NCBI RefSeq assembly: GCF_037078405.1 | Contig: NZ_JAYMGZ010000004.1 | Location: forward strand, 186,001 to 250,000 | Direction: 5' to 3' | DNA length: 64,000 bases | Source: Haloarcula sp. DT43 | GTDB lineage: Archaea > Halobacteriota > Halobacteria > Halobacteriales > Haloarculaceae | In this document: piece after piece, positions 1,063 to 28,398 of the stretch | How positions within the stretch are numbered: position 1 is the stretch's first letter | Layout of the letters: every line of letters begins with the position of its first letter | Made by a program: the position numbers and the translations under genes | The notes under the pieces: model-generated | Databases searched by the model: none | The model's input: the letters and a program-made list of their open reading frames with translations, nothing else | What the model was told of the DNA's origin: nothing

Positions 1063-2295
1063 ATGCGCGAGCGCTTTGACGTGGTGATTGCCGGAGCCGG
1101 GCCTGCGGGGGCGCAGTGTGCCCGTGATCTAGCGGAGCGAAACTACGAGGTGCTCGTTCTCGAAACCGAGTCCGAAGACGAGTTCCCGCGTCAGAGCAAC
1201 AAGTCCACTGCCGGGACGTTCATGTCGGCGATGACCGGCTTCGCCATCCCCGACGACGTGGTGATGAACTACACCGACAACGTCGTCCTGGAGTCGCCAA
1301 ACGACCACTACGTCCGCAGCCAGACCGGCGCAGTGCTGGAGTTCGCGGAGTTCAAACGCTGGCTGGTCGCCGAGGGTCGGACCAACGGCGCGACCTATCG
1401 GTTCGACTCCCGCGTCTCCGCCCCCATCATGGAGGACGGCGAAATCGTCGGCGTCCGCTACGACGGCGACGAGGAGGTGTACGCCGACATCGTCATCGAC
1501 GCCACCGGCCCCGCCGCGCCGCTCGCCAAGAAACTCGACGTGTGTGACCTCCAGCGCGACCACCAGGCCATCGGCGTCGAGTACGAGTTCGAGGGCGTCG
1601 AGGTCGACCACGACGACTACGCCGACCTCCGGGACGCGATGATGCTGCGCCTGGACCACGACCTCGCCCCCGGCGGCTACTCCTGGATTTTCCACACCGG
1701 CGAAGACACGGCGAAGGTCGGCCTCTGTTACATCCAGAACGGCTCCCACCAGAAGTACGCGAAAGACGGGATGGGCATCGACGACTACCTGGAGTACTGG
1801 CTGGACTCGGACTCCCGGTTCGACGACGCCGAGCGCATCGAGGGCCAGCAACACCGCGGGTCGGCCCACATCCAGCCGCCGAAGTCGATGAGCACGGACA
1901 ACTTCATGGCCATCGGCGACACCGTCCCGACCATCGACCCGCTGTGGGGCGAGGGCATCCACAAGGGAATGAAGTCGGCCCGCGCCGCCGCCGCGACCGC
2001 CGATGCCGCACTCACGCCGGAAGAGCCGGACACGTCCGCCGAGAGCCTGTCCGTCTACGACCAGCTCTGGCACAGCGACGTGGCCCCGAAGCACAGCGCC
2101 CGCCTGATGATGACGGAACTGCTGTATCTGGCCCCGAACGAGCGGTACGACCAGCTCATGGCCGACCTCCGGAGCACCGGCCAGGACACGCTCAGACAGA
2201 TAAACAGCGGCGACCGCCGGGCGATTGCGAAGCTCGCCCACCTCTCGGACGTGCCGCTGCTCGTCGACTACGCGCGCCGTCGCTTCGGCATCTGA
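1063..2295 (+). CDS. Geranylgeranyl reductase-family FAD-dependent oxidoreductase
   Basis: A 410-residue flavoprotein. The N-terminus carries the dinucleotide-binding GxGxxG motif (IAGAGPAGA, about residues 10-18) followed by an acidic strand end (VLVLE). A second FAD motif is GDTVPTIDPLWGEGIHKG near residue 285, and GYSWIF near 205 resembles the substrate-site YxWxFP motif of archaeal geranylgeranyl reductases. Known members saturate the isoprenoid chains of archaeal lipids or of menaquinone and other prenyl compounds at the membrane face. Length fits the family. Haloarchaea encode several paralogs, so the exact substrate cannot be read from this sequence; another prenyl reductase or halogenase-like oxidoreductase is possible. 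It is followed by a T-tract and an NAD kinase-like gene. Confidence 0.85.
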   Translation: MRERFDVVIAGAGPAGAQCARDLAERNYEVLVLETESEDEFPRQSNKSTAGTFMSAMTGFAIPDDVVMNYTDNVVLESPNDHYVRSQTGAVLEFAEFKRWLVAEGRTNGATYRFDSRVSAPIMEDGEIVGVRYDGDEEVYADIVIDATGPAAPLAKKLDVCDLQRDHQAIGVEYEFEGVEVDHDDYADLRDAMMLRLDHDLAPGGYSWIFHTGEDTAKVGLCYIQNGSHQKYAKDGMGIDDYLEYWLDSDSRFDDAERIEGQQHRGSAHIQPPKSMSTDNFMAIGDTVPTIDPLWGEGIHKGMKSARAAAATADAALTPEEPDTSAESLSVYDQLWHSDVAPKHSARLMMTELLYLAPNERYDQLMADLRSTGQDTLRQINSGDRRAIAKLAHLSDVPLLVDYARRRFGI

Positions 2296-2314
2296 GAGCG
2301 AAGTGCGGCAGGTT

Positions 2315-2333
2315 TTTTTCCGCCGGCCCGGAG
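2315..2333 (+). terminator. Possible T-tract terminator
   Basis: Just after the reductase stop there is a run of seven T flanked by GCGG and CCGC. Archaeal transcription commonly ends at such T runs. The site is only about 20 bases before the next start codon, so read-through is equally possible. Confidence 0.35.
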
Positions 2334-2342
2334 TGTCTGGTG

Positions 2343-3056
2343 ATGGGAACCACCGTTGGTGTGGTCGGTGACGAGGCCCTGGCAGACGCGCTCCGGAACG
2401 CCGGTGTGGCCGTCGAACGAGACAGCGGCGGCACGGTCCCGGGAACCGACCGGATTGTCGCCGTCGGCCAAGCGGCCGTCGCCGCGGTGGCACGCGCGGA
2501 CGGCGACCCGCTCGTGTTGCCGGTCGCGGCCGGTCGCGGCGTCCGGTCAGTATCGAGGGACGACGCCGTGGCCGCCGTCTCAGCGCTCTCGGACGCCCGC
2601 GTCGAGACACATCCGGTGCTTCGTGTCACGATGCCCGACGGCACGGTCGAGCAGGCCTTCTGGGACGTGACCCTCGTCACCGCCGACGCGGCCCGTATCT
2701 CCGAGTTCACCGTCGCGTCGACGGCCGACCGAATCGGCCGGTTCCGGGCCGACGGCGTCGTCATCGCGACGGCCGCCGGCTCGTCGGGCTACGCCCACCA
2801 CGTCGGCGGCCCGACTCTGGCACCGTCCAAGCAGGCGGTGGTCGCGCCGATTGCGCCGTTCGCGACCGACCCGGACCACTGGGTGTTGCCGGTCGTCGGG
2901 CTCAGCGCCTCGGTCGAGCGCGACGAGGCGACCGTCGAACTGCTTGTCGACGACCGGGTGTCACGGACAATCGGCTATCAGGAGACCGTCACGATATCCC
3001 TCGGCTCCCCGGTTCGGACCGCCGTCGTCGCCCAGAGCCAGTCCAGATTCGAGTGA
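2343..3056 (+). CDS. NAD kinase-like protein with degenerate active site
   Basis: A 237-residue protein. The C-terminal half matches the NAD(+) kinase fold: IATAAGSSGYAHHVGGPTL (about 142-160) aligns with the family's ATPTGSTAYS...GGP block and is followed by the VVAPIAPF strand. The N-terminal half keeps a Rossmann-like start (GVVGDEALADALRNAG). The hallmark GGDGT motif, which holds the catalytic Asp, is replaced by IVAVGQAAV near residue 40, and the usual NE motif is not recognisable. Family members phosphorylate NAD(H) to NADP(H); this one may bind nucleotide without kinase activity. The ATG is preceded by an overlapping GTG. It probably shares a transcript or promoter region with the upstream reductase gene, about 47 bases away. 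Confidence 0.75.
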   Translation: MGTTVGVVGDEALADALRNAGVAVERDSGGTVPGTDRIVAVGQAAVAAVARADGDPLVLPVAAGRGVRSVSRDDAVAAVSALSDARVETHPVLRVTMPDGTVEQAFWDVTLVTADAARISEFTVASTADRIGRFRADGVVIATAAGSSGYAHHVGGPTLAPSKQAVVAPIAPFATDPDHWVLPVVGLSASVERDEATVELLVDDRVSRTIGYQETVTISLGSPVRTAVVAQSQSRFE

Positions 3057-3097
3057 GATTGGAAAGACACTAATGGACGGTGGACAGAGTTTTGGGT

Positions 3098-3559
3098 ATG
3101 CAGCCATCCGTAACGCTCTTTGGGCCACTGGATACCATTCTGGGGAGTCCGACAGTCGGCGGTGCGTTCCTCATCGAATACATCATCTTCGGTGTGGTGG
3201 TTGCCAACTTCCTGACCCGGCAGCTCGCCCACAGAAGCCACGTCAAACAGTACGAAGACGGCGGCGCGGACGCGATTAGCCGCCACCCGGCACACACGTT
3301 CACCAACGTCGCACTGGTCGTGCTGTCGTTTTTCTACATGACGCTGCACCACCACGGCGGGATGGTCCTGTCCGTGCTCGTGCTGGGCGCAGTCATCACC
3401 GACTTCTTCGAGTTCGAGTCCCGAAAGGTCGAGGCGCGCCGTGACATCCCGCTGGAACGACCGAAAGGTGCCATCGTCGCCGCCCTCGTGGTGTTCATGT
3501 ACGCGGGCTACCAGAGCCTGTTCTGGGTCATCAAGGGCCCCTGGAGCGCCATCGTCTGA
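3098..3559 (+). CDS. Haloarchaeal multi-pass membrane protein (DUF7313-like)
   Basis: A 153-residue protein, a conserved haloarchaeal membrane family I know as DUF7313; no function is established to my knowledge. Hydrophobic segments lie at about 23-45 (FLIEYIIFGVVVANFL), 68-95 (TNVALVVLSFFYM) and 118-145, with charged loops between. The second segment is followed by a His cluster, MTLHHHGGM, that could bind a metal or heme. The start was set at MQPSVT; an upstream in-frame ATG would add only six residues. The downstream cytochrome bc cluster on the other strand contains further small membrane proteins, so a respiratory role is a reasonable guess, but it is only neighbourhood evidence. Confidence 0.75.
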   Translation: MQPSVTLFGPLDTILGSPTVGGAFLIEYIIFGVVVANFLTRQLAHRSHVKQYEDGGADAISRHPAHTFTNVALVVLSFFYMTLHHHGGMVLSVLVLGAVITDFFEFESRKVEARRDIPLERPKGAIVAALVVFMYAGYQSLFWVIKGPWSAIV

Positions 3560-3740
3560 ACACGTCCCGGTCTGTTCCGGCTCACTTCTCCGCTGACGGC
3601 GTGCGCGGATAGCATCGCGTGTATGGTCGACACGCCACACGTCAGATTACGCCTAATGTCTAATTCCATCCGAAAAAAGAGTTTGATTGAACAATATTAT
3701 TCTAAAACCCCGCCCGATTGGTCTAGAACTAGCCGCAATA

Positions 3741-3750
3741 GTTTAATACC
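3741..3750 (+). promoter_or_regulatory. TATA-like box for the small HTH gene
   Basis: GTTTAATACC lies in an AT-rich stretch centred about 35 bases before the ATG of the 59-residue gene, predicting a start of transcription some 10 bases upstream of the start codon. The whole interval of about 220 bases before that gene is much more AT-rich than its surroundings and has no other feature I can support. Confidence 0.5.
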
Positions 3751-3780
3751 TCTAAGACGTTCGTGTCGTTGTAGACGAAG

Positions 3781-3960
3781 ATGTCACACAGGTCCCTCAC
3801 AACGGCACTGACGCTGTATCGCGGGGAAACGCTCACGCTTGAAGAGGCGGCGACGTACGGCGGCGTGTCGCCTTCGAAGTTCGCGGCGGCGCTCCGGTCA
3901 CGCGGGATTCAGGTGCGCGAGGAGGACGGCAACACGCTCGTCAAGCATACCGCGAACTGA
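3781..3960 (+). CDS. Small helix-turn-helix-like protein (DUF7317-like)
   Basis: A 59-residue protein, too short for many gene finders. It has TLEEAATYGGVSPSKFAAAL (about residues 18-37), which reads as a helix-turn-helix of the excisionase/MerR-like kind, followed by a short strand pair (QVREEDG). I recognise it as the haloarchaeal family DUF7317. It probably binds DNA, but no target is known. It has its own promoter and is convergent with the small membrane gene at the end of the cytochrome bc cluster, 23 bases away. Codon use matches its neighbours. Confidence 0.75.
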   Translation: MSHRSLTTALTLYRGETLTLEEAATYGGVSPSKFAAALRSRGIQVREEDGNTLVKHTAN

Positions 3961-3983
3961 GAGCGCTCGAAAAAACAGCTCTG

Positions 3984-4253
3984 TTACGCCGACCGCTCGT
4001 CGAGATACGCCTGGAACTCGCTGACCAGCGGGAGCAGGACCCAGAAGGTCAGCGCGCCCAGTACCGCGAACCAGAAGAACGCGTCGCCCATGAACAGGGC
4101 TATCTGGTCGAACACGGTCGGTTCCTCGATGGTAAGTTCGCCGGTGAGCTGTGCCCCCTCGAAGCTCGGCGTGTTGTACCAGCCCTTGATCGTCATCCAA
4201 CCCAGTCCGCCGACCATGAGGCACGCGAACCCCTTCATGAACTCGTCAGCCAT
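3984..4253 (-). CDS. Small membrane protein of the bc-complex cluster (DUF7314-like)
   Basis: An 89-residue protein with two predicted membrane helices, at about 7-25 (GFACLMVGGLGWMTI) and 55-78 (FFWFAVLGALTFWVLLPLV), joined by an outward-looking polar loop. It is the last gene of the minus-strand respiratory cluster, ten bases after the preceding small membrane gene. I know it as haloarchaeal DUF7314. Its place suggests an accessory or supernumerary subunit of the cytochrome bc complex or an assembly factor. No redox ligands are visible. Confidence 0.75.
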   Translation of the reverse strand: MADEFMKGFACLMVGGLGWMTIKGWYNTPSFEGAQLTGELTIEEPTVFDQIALFMGDAFFWFAVLGALTFWVLLPLVSEFQAYLDERSA

Positions 4254-4263
4254 TATCCGAACG

Positions 4264-4563
4264 TTAGGTAGCGTCGTCTTTAGACTTTCCCATTTCCTCG
4301 GTCCGGAACCGCGTCGAGAACGCGTAGACGACTGTGCCGGCGAGGATGCAGGCGATGCCGGCGATGGCGACCGGGACGTCTATCTCGGAGGCGGGCGCCG
4401 ACGCCCGCTGTGTCGCCACGTCGACGAGGATGAAGCCGGCGACGACGCTTATCACCGCAAACAGCGTCGAGAACACCGTCACGGCCTTGTACACGCGCAG
4501 CGGGACCACGACGTCCCGCCGCTCCGAACCGCTCTCAGTCCCCGCTGGCTGGTCCTCTGTCAT
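4264..4563 (-). CDS. Small membrane protein of the bc-complex cluster (DUF7315-like)
   Basis: A 99-residue protein. A polar Asp/Glu-rich N-terminus of about 25 residues is followed by two membrane helices, roughly 28-48 (AVTVFSTLFAVISVVAGFIL) and 65-85 (VPVAIAGIACILAGTVVYAF), and a charged C-terminal tail. It sits between the subunit IV-like cytochrome gene, 97 bases upstream, and the DUF7314-like gene, 10 bases downstream. Function is unknown; context suggests association with the bc complex. The longer gap before it could hold an internal promoter, although I see no clear TATA box. Confidence 0.75.
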   Translation of the reverse strand: MTEDQPAGTESGSERRDVVVPLRVYKAVTVFSTLFAVISVVAGFILVDVATQRASAPASEIDVPVAIAGIACILAGTVVYAFSTRFRTEEMGKSKDDAT

Positions 4564-4660
4564 CGTCAGCCCTAGGGACGGAAGCTACTTTACTGCGGCG
4601 AGACGCGGGCGAGCCGCTCAGTAGGCGACAGCGACGGTGAAAAGAAACACTGCGAACGGA

Positions 4661-5425
4661 CTACTTCGGCGGCCGCAGCCGGTAGTACCGGCGGTTGAGG
4701 TCGAACATGTAGCCCTCGCGCATCGTCTTGAGCACCGCGTAGGTGATAGTCGCGCTGACGATGGGGACGAGGAACGTCAGGTCGAACAGCAGGTGCGAGT
4801 CCATCGGGACGAGGTTCTTGATGGACAGCGCAGCGATGGTCAGGCTGAAGATGACGCCGGACATCCCGACCGCAGCCCAGAACGGCTGCTCGACGGGACG
4901 GCGCGCAGACCCCTTGTTCAGGAAGGGGACGATGGCGACGAACCCGACGACGACGACGTTTGCCAGCACACCGTAGGTCCGGTCGGCCATGAGCTTCGAC
5001 CCGCCGAGGATGCTCAGGTCCGGGTTCAGCGGGCCGAGCTTGAGCAGGCCGAAGGACCAGTAGAGGTACCAGTCCGGCAGGATGATAGCCGGCGTCACGC
5101 TGGAGTTGGCCGGGTTCGGCATCTCCGGGGGCAGCGTCGCCGAGACGAACAGAATCATGCCCACGAAGAAGGAGGTCAGCGCGATGTTGCGCATCATCTC
5201 GTGGGGCCAGGCCGGGAACGCGAGCACGTCGCGCTCGACGTAGTCGGACTGCTGGCGCAGGTCCTGGTCCTCGCGGCGCGCCCGCTCGAAGTACTCGTAG
5301 GTCAGCCGGGAGAGCCCCTGGGTCCGCTCCTTGCGTTCGGACCACGCGGGGGTCTCGTCGTCCGGCGAGACGATACCGGTGCCGGAACCGTCCGTGCGAA
5401 CGTCGTCGTTGTCGTTGTCGCTCAT
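4661..5425 (-). CDS. Cytochrome b C-terminal domain subunit (subunit IV-like) of bc complex
   Basis: A 254-residue protein corresponding to the C-terminal half of cytochrome b, or subunit IV of b6f complexes. After a soluble acidic N-terminal region of about 75 residues come about four membrane helices. The quinol-oxidation-site PEWY motif is present as PDWY in AIILPDWYLYWSFGLLK (about 117-133). Together with the upstream N-terminal cytochrome b gene, four bases away, it would form the Qo and Qi sites that oxidise menaquinol and pass electrons to the Rieske protein. The family's subunit IV is about 160 residues; the N-terminal extension here is longer and hydrophilic. Confidence 0.88.
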   Translation of the reverse strand: MSDNDNDDVRTDGSGTGIVSPDDETPAWSERKERTQGLSRLTYEYFERARREDQDLRQQSDYVERDVLAFPAWPHEMMRNIALTSFFVGMILFVSATLPPEMPNPANSSVTPAIILPDWYLYWSFGLLKLGPLNPDLSILGGSKLMADRTYGVLANVVVVGFVAIVPFLNKGSARRPVEQPFWAAVGMSGVIFSLTIAALSIKNLVPMDSHLLFDLTFLVPIVSATITYAVLKTMREGYMFDLNRRYYRLRPPK

Positions 5426-5429
5426 TGTA

Positions 5430-6233
5430 TCAGTGTGGTTCAGCGATCCCCTGCATCCAGACGATGCCGATGTGGACCGCGATGATGGCAGTCGTGATGA
5501 ACGGCAGGAAGAACACGTGCAGGATGTACATCCGCTGTAGCGTGGCCTGCGAGAGCGTGAACCCGCCGAACATCAGCTGTGCGACCCACTCACCGATGAG
5601 CGGGATAGAGAGGGACATCTCGACGCCGATCTGGCCGGCCCAGAACGACAGCTGGCTCCACGGCAGCAGGTAGCCGGTGTACCCGAACACCAGCGTCAGC
5701 GAGATGAGGACGATGCCGATGAGCCAGTTCAGCTCGCGCGGTTCCTTGTACGCCCCGGTGAAGTACACGCGGAGCATGTGGAGGAACACGGCAGCGACCA
5801 TTATCTGGGCGGCCCAGCGGTGGACCGACCGCAGGAAGTAGCCGAGGTTGAGCTGGCCCATGATGAGCAGCACCGAGTCGTACGCGATTGTCGGCGACCC
5901 GTCGGCGGCTGCCGCGGCCGGTGCGTAGTAGAAGCCAAGCAGCGCGCCGGATATCGCGGCGACGACGTACGCCACCGTCGAGAACGACCCCAGCGCGTAC
6001 AGCGGGTACCAGTACCAGAACTTGTTGTCGAGGTTGTACTGCTCCGTGTGGCTCTTGGGCATCTGCATGTTGACCTTGTAGTAGAGGTCCTCGAGTATCT
6101 CCAGGTAGTCAACGATACGCAGCCGCCTGTCGAGCCAGACGAGCACAGTCAGGTACACCGATTCGACCGGCGTCAGCTCGCGCGATTCCATCCAGCCTTT
6201 GTGGTCGTGTTCGTCTTTGCGTTCGAGACTCAT
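5430..6233 (-). CDS. Cytochrome b N-terminal subunit (b6-type), diheme
   Basis: A 267-residue cytochrome b with four helices and two bis-His heme sites. Helix B shows His-x13-His (within SVHRWAAQ...FLHM) and helix D shows His-x14-His (LHVFFLPF...AVHIG). Fourteen residues in helix D is the cytochrome b6 spacing, whereas mitochondrial-type cytochrome b has thirteen. The protein contains no cysteine, so the covalent extra heme of chloroplast b6 is not possible. A soluble N-terminal extension of about 75 residues precedes helix A. It is the quinone-binding, transmembrane electron-transfer core of the complex. It is packed between the Rieske gene, three bases upstream, and the subunit IV-like gene. 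Confidence 0.92.
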   Translation of the reverse strand: MSLERKDEHDHKGWMESRELTPVESVYLTVLVWLDRRLRIVDYLEILEDLYYKVNMQMPKSHTEQYNLDNKFWYWYPLYALGSFSTVAYVVAAISGALLGFYYAPAAAAADGSPTIAYDSVLLIMGQLNLGYFLRSVHRWAAQIMVAAVFLHMLRVYFTGAYKEPRELNWLIGIVLISLTLVFGYTGYLLPWSQLSFWAGQIGVEMSLSIPLIGEWVAQLMFGGFTLSQATLQRMYILHVFFLPFITTAIIAVHIGIVWMQGIAEPH

Positions 6234-6236
6234 TGA

Positions 6237-7103
6237 TTACTCCGTCTGTGGTGGGCGTGGTAGCGCCACGAACGTCGCTTGCACGGGACTGAACGGGTCG
6301 TACACCGATTGGTGGCACTGACAGTAAATAGCGTTTGCGCCGCCGAAGTTCGCACTCCCTTCCTGAGTCTTGAACCCAGGCACACAGCAGAAGTGCGTAC
6401 ACTTGTTCAGCCAGGCGATGAAGCCCTGGTCGGTCGCCTCCGAGACGAACGACTGGACGCTTCCGGGGAGGTCGGCGTACTCGCCTTCGCCGTTAGCCAT
6501 CTTCTCGACTTCGACCGACCGGATTACCTGCACCGGAGCGCCGTTACTCCCTTCGCTGTTGGTCCGCCAGACGACGCTCGCAGGCTTTCCGATTCCGGGG
6601 GTACCGATACCGTTGCCCCACTCCTGGTAGTCGTCGAACATGTCGACGGTAAGTGGTTTGCCGGATTCGTACTCGCCCTGCCAGGAGAAGGTCCCCGTGT
6701 CGTTGAGGAACGTGTTGTTCCGCTCCGATTGCGGGTAGATGGCTGCAGTACTCTGAATACCACAGTACTGGAACCACTGCGAGGAGTAGTCGATGCCGCT
6801 GCCGCCGAAGTCCGGTGCGACGGCCGCACCGGCGTTCTCGTCGTATTCCGGCCAGAAGCCGCTGATTTCGCCGCCGTTGATTTCGATGGGGATTATCGGC
6901 ATCCCCCGCGGGGCCGGTCCGTCGGTGTTCTCGACGGCGACGAACGGGGTCGTCCCGCCACCTTCGCCGGCGGCGTCTGTCGTCACGTCGACGGCTGCAG
7001 CGCCACCGACGCCGACGCTGGAGAGCGCTGCGCTCCCGACGACGCCCTTTACGAAGCGACGGCGGCCTGTCTCGGCCGGATATTTGTCTTCATCAAGTGG
7101 CAT
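6237..7103 (-). CDS. Rieske iron-sulfur protein, Tat-exported
   Basis: A 288-residue Rieske [2Fe-2S] protein. The cluster ligands are visible as CTHFCC (box I, about residue 238) and CQCHQS (box II, about 265), giving the needed two Cys and two His plus the disulfide cysteines. The N-terminus has a twin-arginine motif (GRRRFVKGVVG) before a hydrophobic stretch, so the folded cluster protein is expected to be exported and stay anchored. It carries electrons from the cytochrome b subunit to halocyanin. A long insert of about 150 residues between anchor and cluster domain contains PQSERNN and similar polar loops. Only one base separates it from the upstream small membrane gene. Confidence 0.93.
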   Translation of the reverse strand: MPLDEDKYPAETGRRRFVKGVVGSAALSSVGVGGAAAVDVTTDAAGEGGGTTPFVAVENTDGPAPRGMPIIPIEINGGEISGFWPEYDENAGAAVAPDFGGSGIDYSSQWFQYCGIQSTAAIYPQSERNNTFLNDTGTFSWQGEYESGKPLTVDMFDDYQEWGNGIGTPGIGKPASVVWRTNSEGSNGAPVQVIRSVEVEKMANGEGEYADLPGSVQSFVSEATDQGFIAWLNKCTHFCCVPGFKTQEGSANFGGANAIYCQCHQSVYDPFSPVQATFVALPRPPQTE

Positions 7104-7104
7104 G

Positions 7105-7524
7105 TTATTTCTTGTAGTATGGATACACTGCGCGTTTGAAGGTCTCTGCGAACTTGTCGCCGTCCGCCATCGTCGTACCGTCGACGTCTTCCTGACGGAT
7201 GTAGAGGTCCTCCCACTTCCGGCGGCGTTTCTTGACTATCATCACGTCGGGGAGGAACTCCTTGCGGTACAGCAGCATGATGAACGACAGGTCGATGAAA
7301 ATCGCCGTCAGCACGCCACCGAGGAACATGTTGGCCTCGATGAGCCGAACCGTCAGCGTCGTCCCGATACCTGACGCCCAGCCGGCAATCATGCCGTAGG
7401 TGAACAGGCCGACAAGGCCGACCTGGATAATCGTCAGGAGCACGATACCGACGGCCGCCGCCGTGCTCTCGCGCGGCGGTTCGTACCGGTGGATATCGCC
7501 GTAGGTGGAGCCTTCGGATGCCAT
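7105..7524 (-). CDS. Membrane protein between halocyanin and Rieske genes (DUF7318-like)
   Basis: A 139-residue protein with two strong membrane helices, about 22-46 (AVGIVLLTIIQVGLVGLFTYGMI) and 68-88 (LGGVLTAIFIDLSFIMLLY), and a basic cytosolic C-terminal half (VKKRRRKWEDLY). Its start shares one base with the halocyanin stop and its stop is one base from the Rieske start, so it must be co-translated with them. I know it as haloarchaeal DUF7318. It carries no heme or copper ligands. The tight packing makes it a strong candidate for a structural subunit of the haloarchaeal bc complex. Confidence 0.82.
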   Translation of the reverse strand: MASEGSTYGDIHRYEPPRESTAAAVGIVLLTIIQVGLVGLFTYGMIAGWASGIGTTLTVRLIEANMFLGGVLTAIFIDLSFIMLLYRKEFLPDVMIVKKRRRKWEDLYIRQEDVDGTTMADGDKFAETFKRAVYPYYKK

Positions 7525-8180
7525 CAGTTGTTCCCTCCGCTAGTGTGGGGCGACTCGCCGTACTTCAGCTGGAAGAACGTGTAGATGAGCGGGATGATGA
7601 CCGCGAGCCCGGCACCGAACCCGACGTAGTGGGGCTGGATGGGGACGCCGGCGTAGTGTGGGTCGACCTCTACCGGGCCGCCGCCACCGATTGTCTGTGT
7701 CGGGTACTCCTCGCCGACAACAATCGCTCCCTTCATGTTGAGTCCCTCGTGTGGGACACAGAGGTACGGGTAGATGCCGTCCTCCTCGAAGGTGTGTTCG
7801 TAGTTGACCCCGGCACTGGAGGTCGTGCTGCCGGAGTCAAGCGGGCCCTCGCCGTCCGAGACGACGTTGTGGCCGCCGCCGTTGCCCGTCCACTCCCACT
7901 GGACGGTCGCGCCGTTGTCCACGTGGACGGCGGGCGGCCCGAACCCGTACGCGCCGCCGTTGGCCTGCACACCGACCTCGACAGTCACCGTGTCCTGTCC
8001 GGTCGCGTCAACGGTCGTCCCGTCGAAGTTCCCGACCTGGTCCAGGAAACCGCCGTAGTCCGGGACGGTTTCGCCACCTCCGCTGCCCTCCTCCTGTGCG
8101 GCGGCGGTGCCGGTGGCACTGAGGGTCGCCGCAGCACCGGCGGCACCCCCTGCAGTCCGGACGAACTCCCGTCTGTTCAT
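7524..8180 (-). CDS. Halocyanin-like blue copper protein with C-terminal membrane anchor
   Basis: A 218-residue type 1 copper protein. The Tat signal NRREFVRTAGGAAG is followed by an Ala-rich segment. The cupredoxin domain spans about 60-165: the first His ligand is in GGHNVVSDG, and the Cys, His and Met ligands are in CVPHEGLNM. A C-terminal helix (AGLAVIIPLIYTFFQLKY, about 188-208) would anchor it in the membrane, unlike soluble plastocyanins. It probably takes electrons from the Rieske protein and hands them to the terminal oxidase. I chose ATG at MNRREF because a TATA box lies about 30 bases upstream; a GTG two codons earlier is possible. It is the first gene of the bc operon. Confidence 0.9.
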   Translation of the reverse strand: MNRREFVRTAGGAAGAAATLSATGTAAAQEEGSGGGETVPDYGGFLDQVGNFDGTTVDATGQDTVTVEVGVQANGGAYGFGPPAVHVDNGATVQWEWTGNGGGHNVVSDGEGPLDSGSTTSSAGVNYEHTFEEDGIYPYLCVPHEGLNMKGAIVVGEEYPTQTIGGGGPVEVDPHYAGVPIQPHYVGFGAGLAVIIPLIYTFFQLKYGESPHTSGGNN

Positions 8181-8207
8181 ATACACTCAAGAATCAGGAC
8201 TGAGTTT

Positions 8208-8214
8208 GTATAAA
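8208..8214 (-). promoter_or_regulatory. TATA box of the halocyanin-bc complex operon
   Basis: On the minus strand TTTATAC is centred about 31 bases before the halocyanin ATG, giving a nearly leaderless mRNA. It falls in the gap behind the upstream DUF7319-like gene, so the bc operon has its own promoter. Confidence 0.65.
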
Positions 8215-8241
8215 CCCACCGAATACCACCCGCAGGAACCG

Positions 8242-9126
8242 TCATTGCCCGGCTTCGTCGGTCTCGTCCGTCCCCGCTTCGGACCCCGTATTCTGCGGGT
8301 CGAGCTCCGGGACGAACTCCGGTCGCTCGCCGTCTTCGAGCCCGATGGCCCGCAGTCTGTCCCGGTACTCCTCGGCGCGGAACGTGTCCGAGAGCCGCGC
8401 GTTGGCGACGGTGAAAAACAGGACGAGCGACACCCCGATGAACGCGACGCCGGCCACGACCAGGAGCGCGATGCTGGTCCCGGCGTTGCCGATGACGCCG
8501 GCGGTCGCAAGCACCGCGCCCCCAAGCAGGGCGACCCCGGCCAGGAACTGCGTGCCGGCAATCGCCTGGAGCATCCAGTTCCCGAGTTCGCCGCCGCCCT
8601 CGGGGACCTCCTCTGGCTCGGGGAGGGGCCTGTCGGGGACGGTCTCGGGCACGTCGTAGGAGTCCATCGAACACAGTGCGACCGTCGGCTTCACGTCCCG
8701 CATGACGGTCCCTTCGCCTTCGAGGCTCCCGTCGGGGTAGACGACCGCGTAGCCCTCGTCGGAGTACGCGAGCACCCGCGGCGGGTCCCGGTGGCGCTCG
8801 ATGCGGGCGAACACGTCGCGGTTTGCGACGCGGCTCCGGAGGTCCCGCGTGACCCGGTCCAACAGTTCGTCGCCGGTAATCCAGGACTCCTCGTCGAAGG
8901 CGACGTCCCACTCCTCGGCGGTCATCTCGGCCATGTCCGCCGGGCCGAAGTTGTCGAAGTCGTACTTCTCCTCGACCTGCTTCCGGAGCGCCTCCGTGTC
9001 GAGGTCCTCCTCGCCGTCGGCCGGCTCCCCGCCCTCGGTTCCGGGCTCGGGTTCGGCAGTGACCGCGTCCGCAGGGCTGTTCCCGCGCTCGTCTTCCGTG
9101 GGCGCCGTCGAGTCCGGGTCGGCCAT
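8242..9126 (-). CDS. Haloarchaeal membrane protein upstream of bc operon (DUF7319-like)
   Basis: A 294-residue protein. The first 50 residues are highly acidic and disordered, then comes a soluble domain of about 130 residues (including EEWDVAFDEESWITGDELL and a segment on cofactor-like strands AYSDEGYAVVYPDGSLEG). Two adjacent membrane helices follow at about 195-240 (GTQFLAGVALLGGAVLATAGV and IALLVVAGVAFIGVSLVLFF), then an acidic tail. I know it as DUF7319. It is on the same strand just before the halocyanin promoter and divergent from a DUF7321-like gene. A link to respiration is inferred from position only. Confidence 0.75.
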   Translation of the reverse strand: MADPDSTAPTEDERGNSPADAVTAEPEPGTEGGEPADGEEDLDTEALRKQVEEKYDFDNFGPADMAEMTAEEWDVAFDEESWITGDELLDRVTRDLRSRVANRDVFARIERHRDPPRVLAYSDEGYAVVYPDGSLEGEGTVMRDVKPTVALCSMDSYDVPETVPDRPLPEPEEVPEGGGELGNWMLQAIAGTQFLAGVALLGGAVLATAGVIGNAGTSIALLVVAGVAFIGVSLVLFFTVANARLSDTFRAEEYRDRLRAIGLEDGERPEFVPELDPQNTGSEAGTDETDEAGQ

Positions 9127-9213
9127 CGGCCGGGTGTACGGACCGCGACGGCTTACAAGTTCTGACCGTCGCCATCCGGCAGTCTTTAGCGAGCACTGTC
9201 CCTAGGCCCGGCC

Positions 9214-9696
9214 ATGGTGTCGGACGGCCTCGTAGCCACAGTCGTGTTACTGTCGGTGACACTCAGCCTGCCCTGTTTCCTCTATGGCGCGTACTACATC
9301 ATCGAGACCGAGCCGGTGACTTGGGACGTGCTCATGCACCACCTGAAGTTCGTCACGACGGGGCTCGTGTTGACCACCGTCCCGATGGTGCTGTGGATGG
9401 CCCCGCGGCTCCCGGACCAGCTCGGCGGCCTCTCGGCCGTTCACGCGATGCTCGGCCTCCAGGCGTACGCGCTGCTCGCCTTCGGCGGGACCGGCATCGT
9501 CCGCATCTTCCGCGCGAAGCGGGAACACGACCTCTACAACGACTACGACGAGGAGCTGTTGCTCGACGAAATCGGCGACGAGACGTTCAGCCACTGGCGC
9601 TCGCGGCTTCGCATCGGCGTCTTCGGGTACGTCATCTTCTGGCTGCTGGCGTATCTCGTCGGCCTCGCCCGTTACGCCCTCCGGTACGTGGCGTGA
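9214..9696 (+). CDS. Four-helix membrane protein (DUF7321-like)
   Basis: A 160-residue protein with about four membrane helices: 4-27 (GLVATVVLLSVTLSLPCFLY), 43-64, 74-94 and 135-155. Conserved-looking His residues sit at MHHLKF in the second helix region and HAMLG in the third, an arrangement reminiscent of small b-type cytochromes such as the DUF420 or cytochrome b561 groups, though I cannot prove heme binding. I know it as DUF7321. It is divergent from the DUF7319-like gene with a gap of 87 bases, next to the bc operon. Confidence 0.75.
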   Translation: MVSDGLVATVVLLSVTLSLPCFLYGAYYIIETEPVTWDVLMHHLKFVTTGLVLTTVPMVLWMAPRLPDQLGGLSAVHAMLGLQAYALLAFGGTGIVRIFRAKREHDLYNDYDEELLLDEIGDETFSHWRSRLRIGVFGYVIFWLLAYLVGLARYALRYVA

Positions 9697-9782
9697 GCGC
9701 CGACGAGCCACCGGTTCTCGGGGCCCGCGAACCGACTAGACGTTTCATTAGGAGTGCAGGTCTATCGACGGCCGTGGTTCCA

Positions 9783-10289
9783 ATGTACGAACACATCCTC
9801 TTCCCGACCGACGGCAGCGACGGGGCGGCGGTCGCGCTGGCGCACGCGCGGGAACTGGCCGAGACACACGACGCGACGTTACACGTCATGACCGTCCTCG
9901 ATACGTCCTCGCCACACATCGGGATGACCGCCGCGGGCACGGAGGGGGCATCGTCCGGGATGGTCGCGGAGGAACACGACGCGTCTGAGCCCGGCGTGGT
10001 CGGCGAGGAGCACGGCATCGAGTCGTCGCTCCGGGAGCGGGCGCAGGCCATCGTCGAGGCGGCGGCCGACGAAGTCGACACGGTCGAGACCGTCACCGCC
10101 GTCGAACGCGGCCCCCCGCACCGCGCGATTCTCGACTACGCCGCCGACAACGACCTCGACCTCGTCGTGATGGGGACCCACGGCCGGACCGGCATCGAGC
10201 GGTATCTGCTCGGGAGCGTCGCCGAGAAGGTCGTTCGAACGTCCGACGTACCCGTGCTGACCGTGCGACTCGGTGCCGACGGGGACTGA
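9783..10289 (+). CDS. Universal stress protein (UspA family)
   Basis: A 168-residue USP domain. It starts MYEHILFPTDGSDGAAVALAH and ends with the ATP-binding signature in MGTHGRTGIERYLLGSVAEKV, a G-2x-G-9x-G(S/T) pattern, so nucleotide binding is likely. An acidic insertion of about 35 residues rich in Gly/Ser/Glu (near 55-90) lies between the first helix and the rest. USPs are cytosolic stress or signalling proteins with many paralogs in haloarchaea, and a second one is found in this window near 43.5 kb. The start ATG was chosen because it begins the canonical first strand. Endonuclease III follows on the opposite strand, 9 bases away. Confidence 0.9.
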   Translation: MYEHILFPTDGSDGAAVALAHARELAETHDATLHVMTVLDTSSPHIGMTAAGTEGASSGMVAEEHDASEPGVVGEEHGIESSLRERAQAIVEAAADEVDTVETVTAVERGPPHRAILDYAADNDLDLVVMGTHGRTGIERYLLGSVAEKVVRTSDVPVLTVRLGADGD

Positions 10290-10298
10290 CTGCTCGGG

Positions 10299-10982
10299 CT
10301 ACCACGCCTCGCCGCTGGCGAGGTCGACCTCGCCGTCGCCCTGCTCGGACGGACAGATGTCCGCGAGGACGCACGCCCCGCAGTCGGCCGAGCGCGCACC
10401 ACACACCGCGCGCCCGTGGTCGATGAGCAGGTGCGTGAACTGCTGCCACTCGTCCTCGGGGACCACGTCGAGGAGGTCCTGCTCGATGGCCTCGGGCCGC
10501 TCTTCCTCGGTAAGTCCCAGCCGCCGCGAGAGCCGCTGGACGTGCGTGTCGACGACGATGCCCTCGACGATGTCGTGGCCGTGCTGGAGGACGACGTTGG
10601 CCGTCTTGCGGCCGACGCCCGGGAGGTCCGTCAGTTCCGACATCGTGTCGGGGACCTCGCCGTCGTGTTCCTCGACGAGAATCTCGCCGATGCCCTGGAG
10701 GTAGCCGCCCTTGTTGTTGTGGAACGTGATGCCGTAGATGGCCTCCGCGAGTTCCTCCTCGGTGGCCGCGGCGTAGTCCTCGGCGCCCCGGTACGTCTCG
10801 AACAGGTCCGCCGTGACCTCGTTGACCCGCTCGTCGGTACACTGCGCCGAGAGGACGACGGCGACCAGCAGTTCGAGCCGGTCGCTGTAGTGCAGTGAAA
10901 TCGCCGAATCGGGGTACTCCTCGTGGAGTCGGTCGACGACCTCCGTGGCCTGTGCCTCGCGCGAATCCAGCGGCGTTCCCAT
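10299..10982 (-). CDS. nth: Endonuclease III (DNA glycosylase/AP lyase)
   Basis: A 227-residue base-excision repair enzyme that removes oxidised pyrimidines. The helix-hairpin-helix LPGVGRKTANVVL near residue 125 holds the catalytic Lys, and VDTHVQRLSRRLG just after it holds the catalytic Asp. The C-terminal [4Fe-4S] cluster motif Cys-x6-Cys-x2-Cys-x5-Cys is complete (CGARSADCGACVLADIC). Length is typical. The start MGTPLDSREAQ has no better alternative. Confidence 0.95.
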   Translation of the reverse strand: MGTPLDSREAQATEVVDRLHEEYPDSAISLHYSDRLELLVAVVLSAQCTDERVNEVTADLFETYRGAEDYAAATEEELAEAIYGITFHNNKGGYLQGIGEILVEEHDGEVPDTMSELTDLPGVGRKTANVVLQHGHDIVEGIVVDTHVQRLSRRLGLTEEERPEAIEQDLLDVVPEDEWQQFTHLLIDHGRAVCGARSADCGACVLADICPSEQGDGEVDLASGEAW

Positions 10983-24239: not shown

Positions 24240-24662
24240 TCAGGCGTGACCCTGCTCTTTCGCTCCCTCGCGGACGCTTTCGGACCGCTTGCGGACGCGG
24301 GAGACGTAGCGCTCGATTTTCTCCGGTTTCACGCCGTAGAACGACGCGGCCCAGTAGGCGTCGATACCGTCCTGCGTGAGGAGGTACGCGACGAGGGTGT
24401 CGCGGCCGGCCTGGATGACTGTCGGCGGCACGCCGCGCTCGCCCGTGCCGGCCTCCTGAAAGCCGTTCACGTCGAAGTACACGTCGGCGTACAACGTGGC
24501 CGTCTCGGGGTCCTCGAACGCGATGCCCTCGTGGTCGGGGGCCTCGAAGCGGTAGCACACGTCGCCGTCGGCGGTCGTCCGCTCGACGACGCGCACGCCG
24601 AGGATGTACTCGCGGTAGGTCGAACTGTCCGTCGGTGCGTCTGCTGTGTCTGTGTGTGGCAT
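24240..24662 (-). CDS. Conserved haloarchaeal protein, unknown
   Basis: A 140-residue soluble protein. After a Thr/Asp-rich start comes a strand-rich core (YREYILGVRVVERTTADG and DVCYRFEAPDHEGIAFEDP) and then a helical C-terminal half with GRDTLVAYLLTQDGIDAYWA and ASFYGVKPEKIERYVSRVRK. It has a single Cys and no catalytic motif I recognise. It may belong to a haloarchaeal DUF family (possibly DUF7110), which I cannot confirm. It lies directly upstream, in the same direction, of nothing obvious: the cohesin protein gene ends 14 bases before its start, so the cohesin locus may read into it. Confidence 0.7.
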   Translation of the reverse strand: MPHTDTADAPTDSSTYREYILGVRVVERTTADGDVCYRFEAPDHEGIAFEDPETATLYADVYFDVNGFQEAGTGERGVPPTVIQAGRDTLVAYLLTQDGIDAYWAASFYGVKPEKIERYVSRVRKRSESVREGAKEQGHA

Positions 24663-24676
24663 GGATGGCTGTCGGT

Positions 24677-25414
24677 CTACGGACGTCGAGCGGTTCCGGC
24701 TGCCAGCGCCGCCGCGCCGGCGATTGCGACGAGGACCAGCGCCGGCGGAAGCGAGCCGTCGGCCCCGGTGGTCGACCGAGCGGCCGTGGCACCGCCGGCA
24801 GCGCCACCCGCGTCGCTCGCGGTCCTCGCCGTCCCGGCGGTGGATTCGACGGCCTGCGGGGTCGTTTCCGACGCGGCGACCCGCTCTGCCGTCGCGTCCC
24901 CAGTCACCGCGACCGTCGTCGCCGTCGTGGCGGGCTCGACGGCCGCGCCGCCGTCGGCGTCGACCTGGCTCGACGCGACGGTCACCTGCGTCTCGCCGCC
25001 GGCGACGCCGGTCAGTTCGACCGTCGCCAGCGTCACGTCAGTGGCCCCGGGCTCTATCTGCCCGTCGAGGTCGGCCGCCTCCAGCGTAATCGTCCCGCCG
25101 TCCGAACTCACGACGGGGTCGGTCGTGAGCCCGAAGCGGTCGGGGTAGCTGGCGTTCCCGAACCGGGCGACCCCGGGGTCGGAGACCGCGAGTTCGAGCT
25201 GGTAGCCGGCCAGACCGTCGGGGGCGCTCGTGAGGACGACCGGGACGGCCGTGGTCTCGCCGGCGGCGACGGAGCCGGCCTCGATGCTGATGGCCGGGTC
25301 GCTCTGCCCTGCGGCGAGCGCGGGGAGCGTCCCCGCGAGGAGGACGAGCGCGACGAGCGCCAGGGGGAGGCGAGCGGTCCGGCCGCGTATCGAACGGTGG
25401 GTGTCGTCTGTCAT
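24677..25414 (-). CDS. Membrane-anchored cohesin-domain protein
   Basis: A 245-residue exported protein. An N-terminal hydrophobic signal (LPLALVALVLLAGTLPALAA, about 16-35) is followed by a cohesin-type beta domain (about 38-170). Its start AISIEAGSVAAGETTAVPVV, the centre GLAGYQLELAVSDPGVARF and the block ATVELTGVAG align segment by segment with the cohesin domain of the neighbouring PhoX-like protein. A Thr/Ala/Gly-rich linker of about 50 residues, suitable for glycosylation, leads to a C-terminal helix (PALVLVAIAGAAALAAG) that would hold it in the cell membrane. Cohesins bind dockerins, so it may display the adjacent dockerin-bearing phosphatase. It lies 36 bases downstream of that gene. 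Confidence 0.85.
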   Translation of the reverse strand: MTDDTHRSIRGRTARLPLALVALVLLAGTLPALAAGQSDPAISIEAGSVAAGETTAVPVVLTSAPDGLAGYQLELAVSDPGVARFGNASYPDRFGLTTDPVVSSDGGTITLEAADLDGQIEPGATDVTLATVELTGVAGGETQVTVASSQVDADGGAAVEPATTATTVAVTGDATAERVAASETTPQAVESTAGTARTASDAGGAAGGATAARSTTGADGSLPPALVLVAIAGAAALAAGTARRP

Positions 25415-25450
25415 TGGGTCGCTGTATCGAAAGACGGGGAACCGCGGCCG

Positions 25451-28117
25451 TCAGTTGACCTCTTCGTAGAGAGCGGTCACGTCGGCGAAGTCTATCTGTC
25501 CGTTCTCGTTGAAGTCGTACGCGCCGGTGTTCAGGCGGACGCTGTCGGAGTCCATGTTCGAGAACAGGACCTGCACGTCCTCGTAGTCGAGGCGGCCGTT
25601 GCCGTTGAGGTCCTCGAAGTGACCGTCACCGTCGGGGTCGGTCGGGGCGGCGTCGCCGACGACCGTCTGCGGGCCACCGACGACGAGGCCGTTCCGCGTC
25701 TCGGCCTTGATGGCGTTCCCGTTCTCGTCGTCCATCTGCTCGACGGAGACGGTCAGGTCGGTCGTGCCGCCGCTGTCGGCGCGGACGTCCAGCGTCGCCA
25801 GTTCCACGTCCATCGCGCCCGACTGGACGTTCGTGTTCACGTCGGCCACGCGGATGGTGGCCGAGGAACCGTCGTCGCTGATGGCGCTCTCGGTGAGCCC
25901 CAGCGCGTCGGGGAAGGAGACGCCGGTTATCGACGCGATGTCGGGGTTCGAGAGGGAGAGGGTCAGCCGCGCGCCGGAGAAGCCGGCGGGGAGCGAGGAG
26001 GCGGTCACCGGGACGCTCCCGGTGGTGCCGCCGCCGACCGCCGCGGACCCGGCGCTGACGACGACGTTCGGCTGGTAGACGTAGAGGCCGTCGTTCGGGT
26101 ACGAGCGGGCGGGGCCGCCGAAGCCGTCCTCACAGCAGAGCACGCGGCCGTCCCGCATCGTGTAGACGTTGTCGATGTTCCGGAGCGCGTCGTCGGCGTC
26201 CTCGGGCGAGTCGGTGAAGTCCGGCCCGGTGATGACCGGTTCGAGCGTCGAGACGTTGTAGTCCGATTCGAGCACGCCGCGATAGACGACGCCGCCGTCG
26301 ACGCGGTCGAGTTGGACGTCGCCCTCGTCGTCGGCGAGCGCGTCGTTGAACTCGGAGATGCCGAAGTAGACGAAGTCGCCGGGCTGGGAGTCGTCGACGC
26401 TGTCGACGCCCTCGGCCTTGTTGAACTCGATGGACGCGCCGATTTCCTTGGCGGCCGCGCGGGTCTCCAGGAACGGGACGCGCCGGAGTTCCTCGTCGAC
26501 GCCGTCGGGGCCGTTGGCCTCGTACTGCTCGGCCCACGCGAGGATGTCCTCGTTCGTGATGTAGTTCTGGTTCCCGTTCTCGATGACGGAGAGGTCGGCC
26601 TGCTTGATGACCTCGGTAGTCACCTCGTCGCCCTCCGCCCAGTCGGCGTGGGCGCTGAGGTAGTCGGCCTGGGTCACGTCGTCGTACTCGGCGACCCAGG
26701 ACTCGACCTCGCCGTTGGTGGCGTGGCCGAGTTCTATCCACTCGATTTCGAGCGGGGTCTGTGCGGGGGAGTTTCGCTCGCCGGCTTCGGCGGCGTTGGC
26801 CGCGTCGTTCGTAATCTTCGGCGCGTACAGCGTCCCGGTGACGTCCATCGGGTCGTCGTACTCCGGAATCGGCTCGTCGGCGACGAACTTGTAGATGCCC
26901 TTGCTGTCGCCGTCAGAGCAGCCGTAGAGGGTCCGCTGGTCGCCTTCGATGTCGGGTGCCTCCCACGACGCCCGCCCCATCACGTAGTACTTGACCGCCT
27001 CGGGTTCGTCGGCGGTCGGCTCACGGAAGTCGACGAAGTATCCGTACCGGTACGGGTTCGGGTACACGTCGTCGAGCAGCGTCGTCGCCAGGTTCTCGCC
27101 GTCGCCCTGGTCGTCGCGCTCCGCACCGAGGTAGTACGCGAGGAACTCGACGCCGGTCAGCGCCCAGTACCCCTGCGGACCGAAGTTCGCGTCGAGGTCG
27201 CCGCTCTCGGCGTAGGACTCGATTGCGCCCGAAATCTCGCTGGGGTTCGGCCGGTTCCAGAACTGACAGCCGCCGATGAGGCCCTCGCCGGACCCCGCCT
27301 CGACGATGTCGCTCACCGTCGCCGTCAGGCTGACGCGGGGGTGTGCGTAGTTCTCCTCGGCGGAAATCATCGTCCCCCACGGGCTGAGGTCGCCGTAGCA
27401 GTTGATGCGCGTCCCGCCGTGTTCGCGGAGCGACTCGGTGTTCGTCAGGTTCATCGCGTTCTCGGTGTCCGCGCGCCACTCGCCGTTCTCGTCCTGGCTA
27501 AGTGGGACCCGCGAGACGCAGCCGGGGCTGTTCTCCCAGTTGGTGAACAGGTAGCCCTCGGTCCCCTCGTCGTTGGTCGGGACGAACTGGTTGCAGTCGG
27601 GGTTCGTCGCCGCGCCGCCGTACTGGGTGCCCGCGAAGTTCTCCTGGGTGATGTCCGTTCCGTCGGGCGTCTGGACCACGCCGAGTCGCTCCTCGCCGCC
27701 GTTGATTGGCTCGCGCCCCTGGACGAGGATTTCGTAGTCGCCGGCCGCGGACCGGACCTGTCGCTGTTTCTCTTCCGTGTCCGGAATCCCCACCTCCGGG
27801 AAGTCGTTGTTGCTCCCGTCGAACTCGAACTGGAAGCCACTGAAATAGCCCACCGCGGCCCGTCCGAACGGTTCGGGATTCGCTCCCTCCGGGTGCTGGA
27901 GGCTGTACAGCAGCGACCCGTCCTGGAAGACGAACGGCCCGGTCACCTCCGCGCCGAACGCCGTCGTCGAGAAGCGTTTGAGACTCCCGGCGACGCTCGG
28001 TGCGCCCGGTGTGTCCGATTCCTCAACCTCTTCCCCGCTTGCCACGCCGATGACGCTGGCCCCAAGCGCAGCAGCCACCGACTGTGAAAGCACCTGCCGT
28101 CGAGTGAAATCGACCAT
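25451..28117 (-). CDS. PhoX-like phosphatase with cohesin and dockerin domains, Tat-exported
   Basis: An 888-residue protein in three parts. The N-terminus has a Tat signal (FTRRQVLSQSVAAALG). Residues about 45-680 match the PhoX/DUF839 beta-propeller phosphatases, which use calcium and iron; HGGTRINCYGDLSPWGTMIS with its Cys, and SAEENY just after it, are typical blocks. Residues about 684-820 form a cohesin domain (FSGARLTLSLSNPDIASI). Residues about 821-888 are a dockerin with two calcium-binding F-hands, DLNGNGRLDYEDV and DFNENGQIDFADV. PhoX enzymes release phosphate from organic esters outside the cell. Carrying both partners of a cohesin-dockerin pair, it could self-assemble and attach to the membrane cohesin encoded just downstream. 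Confidence 0.88.
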   Translation of the reverse strand: MVDFTRRQVLSQSVAAALGASVIGVASGEEVEESDTPGAPSVAGSLKRFSTTAFGAEVTGPFVFQDGSLLYSLQHPEGANPEPFGRAAVGYFSGFQFEFDGSNNDFPEVGIPDTEEKQRQVRSAAGDYEILVQGREPINGGEERLGVVQTPDGTDITQENFAGTQYGGAATNPDCNQFVPTNDEGTEGYLFTNWENSPGCVSRVPLSQDENGEWRADTENAMNLTNTESLREHGGTRINCYGDLSPWGTMISAEENYAHPRVSLTATVSDIVEAGSGEGLIGGCQFWNRPNPSEISGAIESYAESGDLDANFGPQGYWALTGVEFLAYYLGAERDDQGDGENLATTLLDDVYPNPYRYGYFVDFREPTADEPEAVKYYVMGRASWEAPDIEGDQRTLYGCSDGDSKGIYKFVADEPIPEYDDPMDVTGTLYAPKITNDAANAAEAGERNSPAQTPLEIEWIELGHATNGEVESWVAEYDDVTQADYLSAHADWAEGDEVTTEVIKQADLSVIENGNQNYITNEDILAWAEQYEANGPDGVDEELRRVPFLETRAAAKEIGASIEFNKAEGVDSVDDSQPGDFVYFGISEFNDALADDEGDVQLDRVDGGVVYRGVLESDYNVSTLEPVITGPDFTDSPEDADDALRNIDNVYTMRDGRVLCCEDGFGGPARSYPNDGLYVYQPNVVVSAGSAAVGGGTTGSVPVTASSLPAGFSGARLTLSLSNPDIASITGVSFPDALGLTESAISDDGSSATIRVADVNTNVQSGAMDVELATLDVRADSGGTTDLTVSVEQMDDENGNAIKAETRNGLVVGGPQTVVGDAAPTDPDGDGHFEDLNGNGRLDYEDVQVLFSNMDSDSVRLNTGAYDFNENGQIDFADVTALYEEVN

Positions 28118-28398
28118 GCGGGTGAGGGGTAGCAGTGGTTGTTAAAGCAGTTTTATAATATTCGTATGATATGTCCAGGAGTGCTCCAGTGGCCTCTGTT
28201 CCACCCGTACGTCTAACCCATCGGACATATCACAAATACGGCTATTTTTGCGGGGTACGTACTGTATGGCGTCGACGACGTTCCCTCACGAGCCGGTTCG
28301 TCCTCAGCTACGTACCAGTCGGGGAACGGTCGCCACCGCAGCGGGATGCCCCGACAGCCGGGACAGAAACCGGGCGGGGAGGCGTCGTGGCCCGGCGG
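28118..28398. other. AT-rich intergenic region upstream of the PhoX-like gene
   Basis: About 280 bases without a gene. Near its left end TTTTATAATATTCG lies about 35 bases before the phosphatase start (minus strand) and is a plausible TATA region. A second AT-rich patch (CACAAATACGGCTATTTTTG) lies further right. Phosphate-responsive elements could sit here, but none can be named. Confidence 0.5.

Follow-up and report, generated by a model that had tools for sequence, protein, structure and literature searches.

A membrane-anchored protein with a single cohesin, P2, would capture a secreted phosphatase homologue, PhoX, through the dockerin at the C-terminus of the phosphatase in Haloarcula sp. 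DT43, and a probability of about 75% was assigned to this reading. The two genes lie in a window of 64,000 nucleotides (nt) of assembly GCF_037078405.1 (contig NZ_JAYMGZ010000004.1, positions 186,001 to 250,000). The window is the whole stretch of DNA analysed, and all coordinates below are window positions. Gene 1 (25451..28117, minus strand) encodes the dockerin-tagged secreted phosphatase homologue of 888 amino acids (aa), in which PhoX is followed by a cohesin (coh1) and the dockerin. Gene 2 (24677..25414, minus strand) encodes P2 of 245 aa, and all features of both genes given below are on the same strand. Both open reading frames were verified at the coordinates and strand given by a first-pass annotation of the sequence, with a gap of 36 nt between them and a shared reading frame. 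Capture is proposed because the dockerin tail and P2 co-occur among genomes, just one dockerin and two cohesins were found in the genome, a residue of the first dockerin repeat is lost together with P2, and the membrane anchor of P2 is kept.

Co-occurrence of P2 with the dockerin tail

A genome-wide search with profiles built from relatives found one dockerin, on PhoX, and two cohesins, coh1 and the cohesin of P2 (coh2), one per protein. No multi-cohesin scaffoldin and no dockerin-tagged glycoside hydrolase were found in the genome. Therefore, should P2 bind any member of this dockerin family, the dockerin of PhoX is the sole candidate found.

In the main survey of 292 Halobacteria genomes, P2 adjoined a tailed PhoX (a PhoX with the coh1-dockerin tail) in 60 of 65 genomes, a count that includes one P2 across a contig break (G269) and one split over two frames (G118). 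Where every close PhoX of a genome was tailless, P2 was present in 0/38 genomes (Fisher 4e-23), and no genome had P2 without a tailed PhoX. Among held-out genomes drawn later, P2 was found in 17/17 with a tailed PhoX. For both sets together, P2 was kept in 77 of 82 genomes with a tailed PhoX, so that absence of the adjacency in all relatives, which the first-pass annotation had named as a refuting result, is excluded. Overall, P2 tracks the tail and not the phosphatase. In tandem PhoX clusters, P2 was placed after the last PhoX copy. The split P2 (L072, G118) stands beside two tandem tailed PhoX genes and is likely a frameshift. In some Haloarcula genomes, a second, tailless PhoX was located directly downstream of P2 (L115 in G154, L114 in G269 and L145 in G653).

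A total of five genomes had a tailed PhoX without P2 (G276, G194, G215, G237 and G254). Position 10 of dockerin repeat 1 was H or D in 5/5 of these P2-less copies and aromatic in 62/62 paired copies (Fisher 1e-7), but the PhoX tree showed at least three independent losses of P2, so the Fisher values overstate independence and the fair count is 3/3. The held-out PhoX dockerins kept Y at this position. Positions 10 and 11 of dockerins are established cohesin-recognition positions (PMC8063739).

Modules of PhoX and P2

The leader of PhoX, MVDFTRRQVL, is of the twin-arginine type, and the Tat-type signal peptide was assigned from the sequence to residues ~1-28 (TRRQVL; 28034..28117). The PhoX region (residues ~40-685, 26063..28000) matched PF05787 with 64.9 bits (E=1e-17) against a cut-off of 24 which, together with the leader, agrees with the Tat-exported PhoX-like phosphatase described in the first-pass annotation. 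Pseudomonas fluorescens PhoX was matched in the PDB by a profile of the haloarchaeal core (E=1e-9). Comparison of the alignable parts only, outside which R385 falls among others, showed that C240, E255, E386 and D402 align with C179, E194, E273 and D292 of P. fluorescens PhoX, and these counterparts were invariant across 16 haloarchaeal PhoX cores. C179, E194 and E273 are counted among the metal- or active-site residues of the P. fluorescens PhoX structure. D292 is a named active-site residue of PhoX (PMC11098088). The Haloarcula PhoX is a putative enzyme with conserved counterparts of these residues.

The dockerin (residues 827-888, 25454..25639) scored 17.7 bits with Dockerin_1 (PF00404), under the cut-off of 22.9, which the tagged proteins of L108, L111 and L152 exceeded. 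It contains the two 12-residue F-hand calcium loops recognised in the first-pass annotation, DLNGNGRLDYED in repeat 1 (residues 836-847, 25577..25612) and DFNENGQIDFAD in repeat 2 (residues 868-879, 25481..25516), and the D/N ligands at positions 1, 3, 5, 9 and 12 were conserved at 90-100% in 56 relatives. Recognition position 10 is Y845 in repeat 1 and F877 in repeat 2. In addition, an extra nearly invariant DxDGDGx[FY]ED motif was found directly before loop 1 (25610-25639), which is possibly a third calcium site absent from classical dockerins.

P2 has a predicted signal peptide (residues ~1-36, 25307..25414), coh2 (residues 39-172, 24899..25300), a Thr/Ser/Gly-rich linker, a predicted C-terminal transmembrane anchor (residues ~221-242, 24689..24754) and a basic tail, an arrangement that matches its earlier description as a membrane-anchored protein made of one cohesin. 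A hydrophobic stretch with basic residues at the C-terminus was present in 68/69 membrane-cohesin relatives and a PGF motif in 27 of 69, and the NCBIfam PGF-CTERM cut-off was passed by one of the tested membrane cohesins. Pfam Cohesin (PF00963) gave 13.6 bits (E=0.08) on P2 against a cut-off of 24.1, and such scores may be the reason why cohesins of this kind are unannotated. The AlphaFold model of coh2 had a predicted local distance difference test (pLDDT) score of ~97 and 50/50 of its best PDB matches were cohesins, with a template modelling (TM) score of 0.80 for 2jh2 and 0.73 for Archaeoglobus 2xdh.

The enzyme-borne coh1 (residues 689-822, 25652..26053) was not among the PF00963 matches of the gene 1 product. 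Nearly all the best PDB matches of its model were cohesins, and the TM score with 2xdh was ~0.72-0.73 for both cohesins; the fold of coh1 is that of a cohesin and not of an X-module. Alignment with hhalign related coh1 and coh2 end to end with a probability of 99.9 (E=4e-35; 35% of 132 columns identical). The likeness of the two cohesins seen in the first pass was thus upheld, and the structure predictions suggested there gave cohesin folds that match solved cohesins.

Mean conservation of the 8-3-6-5 face and the opposite face showed no useful difference in either cohesin (coh2 2.41 vs 2.23; coh1 2.49 vs 2.32), and only position-specific differences are informative for the cohesin faces. Position 71 (P2 numbering, as for 112 and 113) was G/A in 67/67 PhoX coh1 compared with Y/F in 87/87 lone or scaffoldin cohesins, while positions 112/113 were mostly R and F/V in coh1 compared with E and A in P2 cohesins. 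These positions, on strand b3 (71) and strand b6 (112/113) of the face used for dockerin binding in known complexes, were among the sharpest switches between coh1 and P2, and the proposed binding-face residues of coh2 are Y71, E112 and A113.

In the AlphaFold model, coh1 and the dockerin made up a single confident unit joined by an ordered linker (pLDDT 92, predicted TM score (pTM) 0.74), and almost every tagged protein examined has coh1 ahead of its dockerin. Hence coh1 is probably a structural partner that packs on the dockerin and not a dockerin receiver, which speaks against the chains proposed in the first-pass annotation, where coh1 of one PhoX would receive the dockerin of another so that phosphatases polymerise on the P2 anchor. 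The full cohesin fold of coh1 and the two near-symmetric dockerin repeats would suit such chains, as would the retention of coh1 and the repeat-2 aromatic in P2-less lineages, as though repeat 2 bound something else. However, the lack of an aromatic at position 71 and the altered positions 112/113 on the dockerin-binding face, together with the ordered linker which suggests an intramolecular role, make chain formation unlikely.

Proposed capture of PhoX by P2 and its alternatives

In the proposed mechanism, PhoX would be exported by the Tat route, as its leader suggests. Export of P2 would depend on its own signal peptide, and its architecture suggests that the C-terminal segment holds it in the membrane with the cohesin outward; many P2 relatives appear to carry an archaeosortase-type PGF signal. 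The P2 cohesin would bind the calcium-loaded dockerin of PhoX chiefly via repeat 1, whose recognition position 10 is Y845. In the manner of the X-modules of X-dockerin tandems, coh1 would pack against the dockerin. With the phosphatase kept at the cell surface, freed phosphate could be taken up before diffusing away.

The proposal of the first-pass annotation that P2 captures PhoX had strong support from comparative genomics, but AlphaFold2 did not produce a confident docking. For the chain of dockerin, linker and P2 that natural read-through of the TGA codon would give, the pTM was 0.57 and the pLDDT of the dockerin was 58-80, in a model where calcium was absent and the dockerin was poorly modelled. 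This result weighs mildly against capture, and three others are set against it as well. Residue covariation of the dockerin with coh2 and with coh1 gave noise at an effective N of 30. P2 was lost on few evolutionary occasions (three independent events), too few for a phylogenetic sign test to reach significance. Finally, the repeat-2 aromatic was kept in all five P2-less copies, which the docking model leaves unexplained. Mirror trees showed that coh2 and dockerin distances correlate after removal of the PhoX-core signal (partial r 0.49), but the correlation between coh1 and P2 (0.58) was equal in strength, so the signal is unspecific.

The missing docking prediction would fit an arrangement in which the dockerin is held in cis by coh1, or is a mere calcium-stabilised cap, and P2, with some other ligand or function, is just inherited alongside. 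The model of the dockerin with coh1 is also better than that with P2. However, P2 follows the tail and not PhoX, no other dockerin was found in the genome, and the recognition residue of repeat 1 was altered only where P2 is absent. Moreover, at independent loci in haloarchaea, other tagged proteins are paired with a membrane cohesin of their own, and the cis arrangement is considered distinctly improbable.

Type I dockerins of haloarchaeal glycoside hydrolases and a glycosaminoglycan lyase have been proposed to be substrate- or carbohydrate-binding (PMC10963439, PMC13260240). If this published proposal applied here, the dockerin would bind a substrate or carbohydrate and P2 would be an unrelated surface protein. 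However, cohesins are unmentioned in both papers, dockerin and cohesin profiles occurred together in 113 genomes compared with 15 and 6 genomes with one only, and the tail belongs to phosphatases, enzymes without a polysaccharide substrate. Substrate binding is thus a very improbable explanation of the tail.

Capture by P2 may extend beyond PhoX. The coh1-dockerin tail was also found on PhoD phosphatases (nine genomes), 5'-nucleotidases (two genomes) and choice-of-anchor I proteins (four genomes), and P2 would probably dock these proteins as well. Among 11 genomes with a tagged PhoD, 5'-nucleotidase or choice-of-anchor I protein, 10 also hold the PhoX tail and P2; in the exception (G130), the gene is near a contig end. 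In G237, the tailed PhoX cluster lies close upstream of a gene for a PstS-like phosphate-binding protein. Because of the tagged PhoD and 5'-nucleotidase found with P2 and this PstS-like gene, phosphate acquisition is likely the theme of the tagged proteins. A tentative extension, held at somewhat less than even odds, is a 'phosphatasome' in which one membrane cohesin docks PhoX, PhoD, 5'-nucleotidase and choice-of-anchor I proteins via one shared, exchangeable coh1-dockerin tag. The resulting surface complex would be calcium-dependent, scavenge phosphate and use an aromatic recognition code as opposed to Ser-Thr.

Other tagged proteins adjoin their own membrane cohesin. Examples are the coh-dockerin-tailed staphylococcal-nuclease/DUF4350 proteins (1000-1500 aa; L097-L100 and L161), each beside its own. 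In addition, scaffoldin-like proteins with 3-5 or more cohesins, most with a dockerin, were observed at L112 (G264, 2214-10732), L126 (G104, cut off) and L127 (G208). At L112, scaffoldin-like proteins stand beside dockerin-tagged GH5 (glycoside hydrolase family 5) cellulases and a membrane cohesin in a cellulosome-like cluster.

Locus context and related systems

Among 14 Haloarcula loci, the best conserved stretch upstream of PhoX was a TATA-like core promoter element, TATTATAAAA (28151..28160, minus strand). The tailless PhoX of another Haloarcula (L113, G016) has this core promoter block in common with the tailed gene. An inverted repeat, ATATGTCC...GGACATAT, upstream in the window was rejected because its conservation was absent in relatives. 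No pst or pho genes were seen near the pair in the gene context of the window, where the neighbours are TrkH and acyl-CoA dehydrogenase. A 140-aa protein (24240-24662, minus strand) had no Pfam, NCBIfam or PDB match. Its family was found near PhoX in nearly all fetched loci (77), tailed and tailless, upstream or downstream, and is an uncharacterised PhoX-linked family.

In clostridial cellulosomes, single-cohesin surface anchors of the OlpA and OlpC type use S-layer homology domains. OlpA and OlpC of Clostridium thermocellum (PDB 3ul4, 4dh2) resemble P2 in having one surface cohesin that receives dockerin-tagged enzymes, and the predicted fold matches. The Haloarcula pair differs in being archaeal, in its transmembrane or sortase-type anchor, in its phosphatase cargo and in that no scaffoldin was found in the genome. 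The recognition residues here are Tyr/Phe flanked by acidic residues or Ala, in place of Ser-Thr.

Enzyme-borne cohesins of Clostridium perfringens link enzymes to one another. These cohesins (PDB 2jh2, 2w1n, 2vo8) are, as here, carried by secreted enzymes, and 2jh2 was the best fold match of P2. However, the enzyme-borne cohesin of PhoX does not show the receptor signature; the role of receptor would fall to a separate membrane protein. X-dockerin tandems of the type II cellulosome and Ruminococcus share a beta-sandwich module N-terminal to the dockerin and an ordered linker; since coh1 has a cohesin fold and is not an X-module, the analogy is functional only.

Among archaea, the cohesin of Archaeoglobus fulgidus (PDB 2xdh) is likewise non-cellulosomal and matched in fold (TM 0.72-0.73). 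The function of the A. fulgidus pair is unassigned, whereas the pair described here comes with a specific enzyme as cargo, a partner in the membrane and a conserved gene order. Archaeal cohesin-dockerin pairs are reported to bind in PMC9012536, which cites earlier work. The paper also describes dockerin-tagged surface proteins in anaerobic methanotrophic (ANME) archaea, some with multi-cohesin scaffoldins. The cargo there consists of substrate-binding and S-layer proteins, and a pairing with phosphatase is not reported in the section concerned.

No description of a phosphatase dockerin paired with a haloarchaeal cohesin was found in the open-access literature searched. Surface docking by cohesin and dockerin is of a known kind, while its proposed phosphatase use in haloarchaea, with a conserved gene pair and an aromatic recognition position, was absent from that literature. 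That haloarchaeal dockerins have been interpreted as substrate-binding probably stems from partner cohesins that fall below the Pfam cut-off. The presence of one dockerin and two cohesins in this genome makes the pair a clean natural test system and, if functional at molar salt, it would provide halophilic binding modules for protein engineering. If capture by P2 is true, cohesin-dockerin surface assembly would reach phosphate acquisition in a widespread archaeal group.

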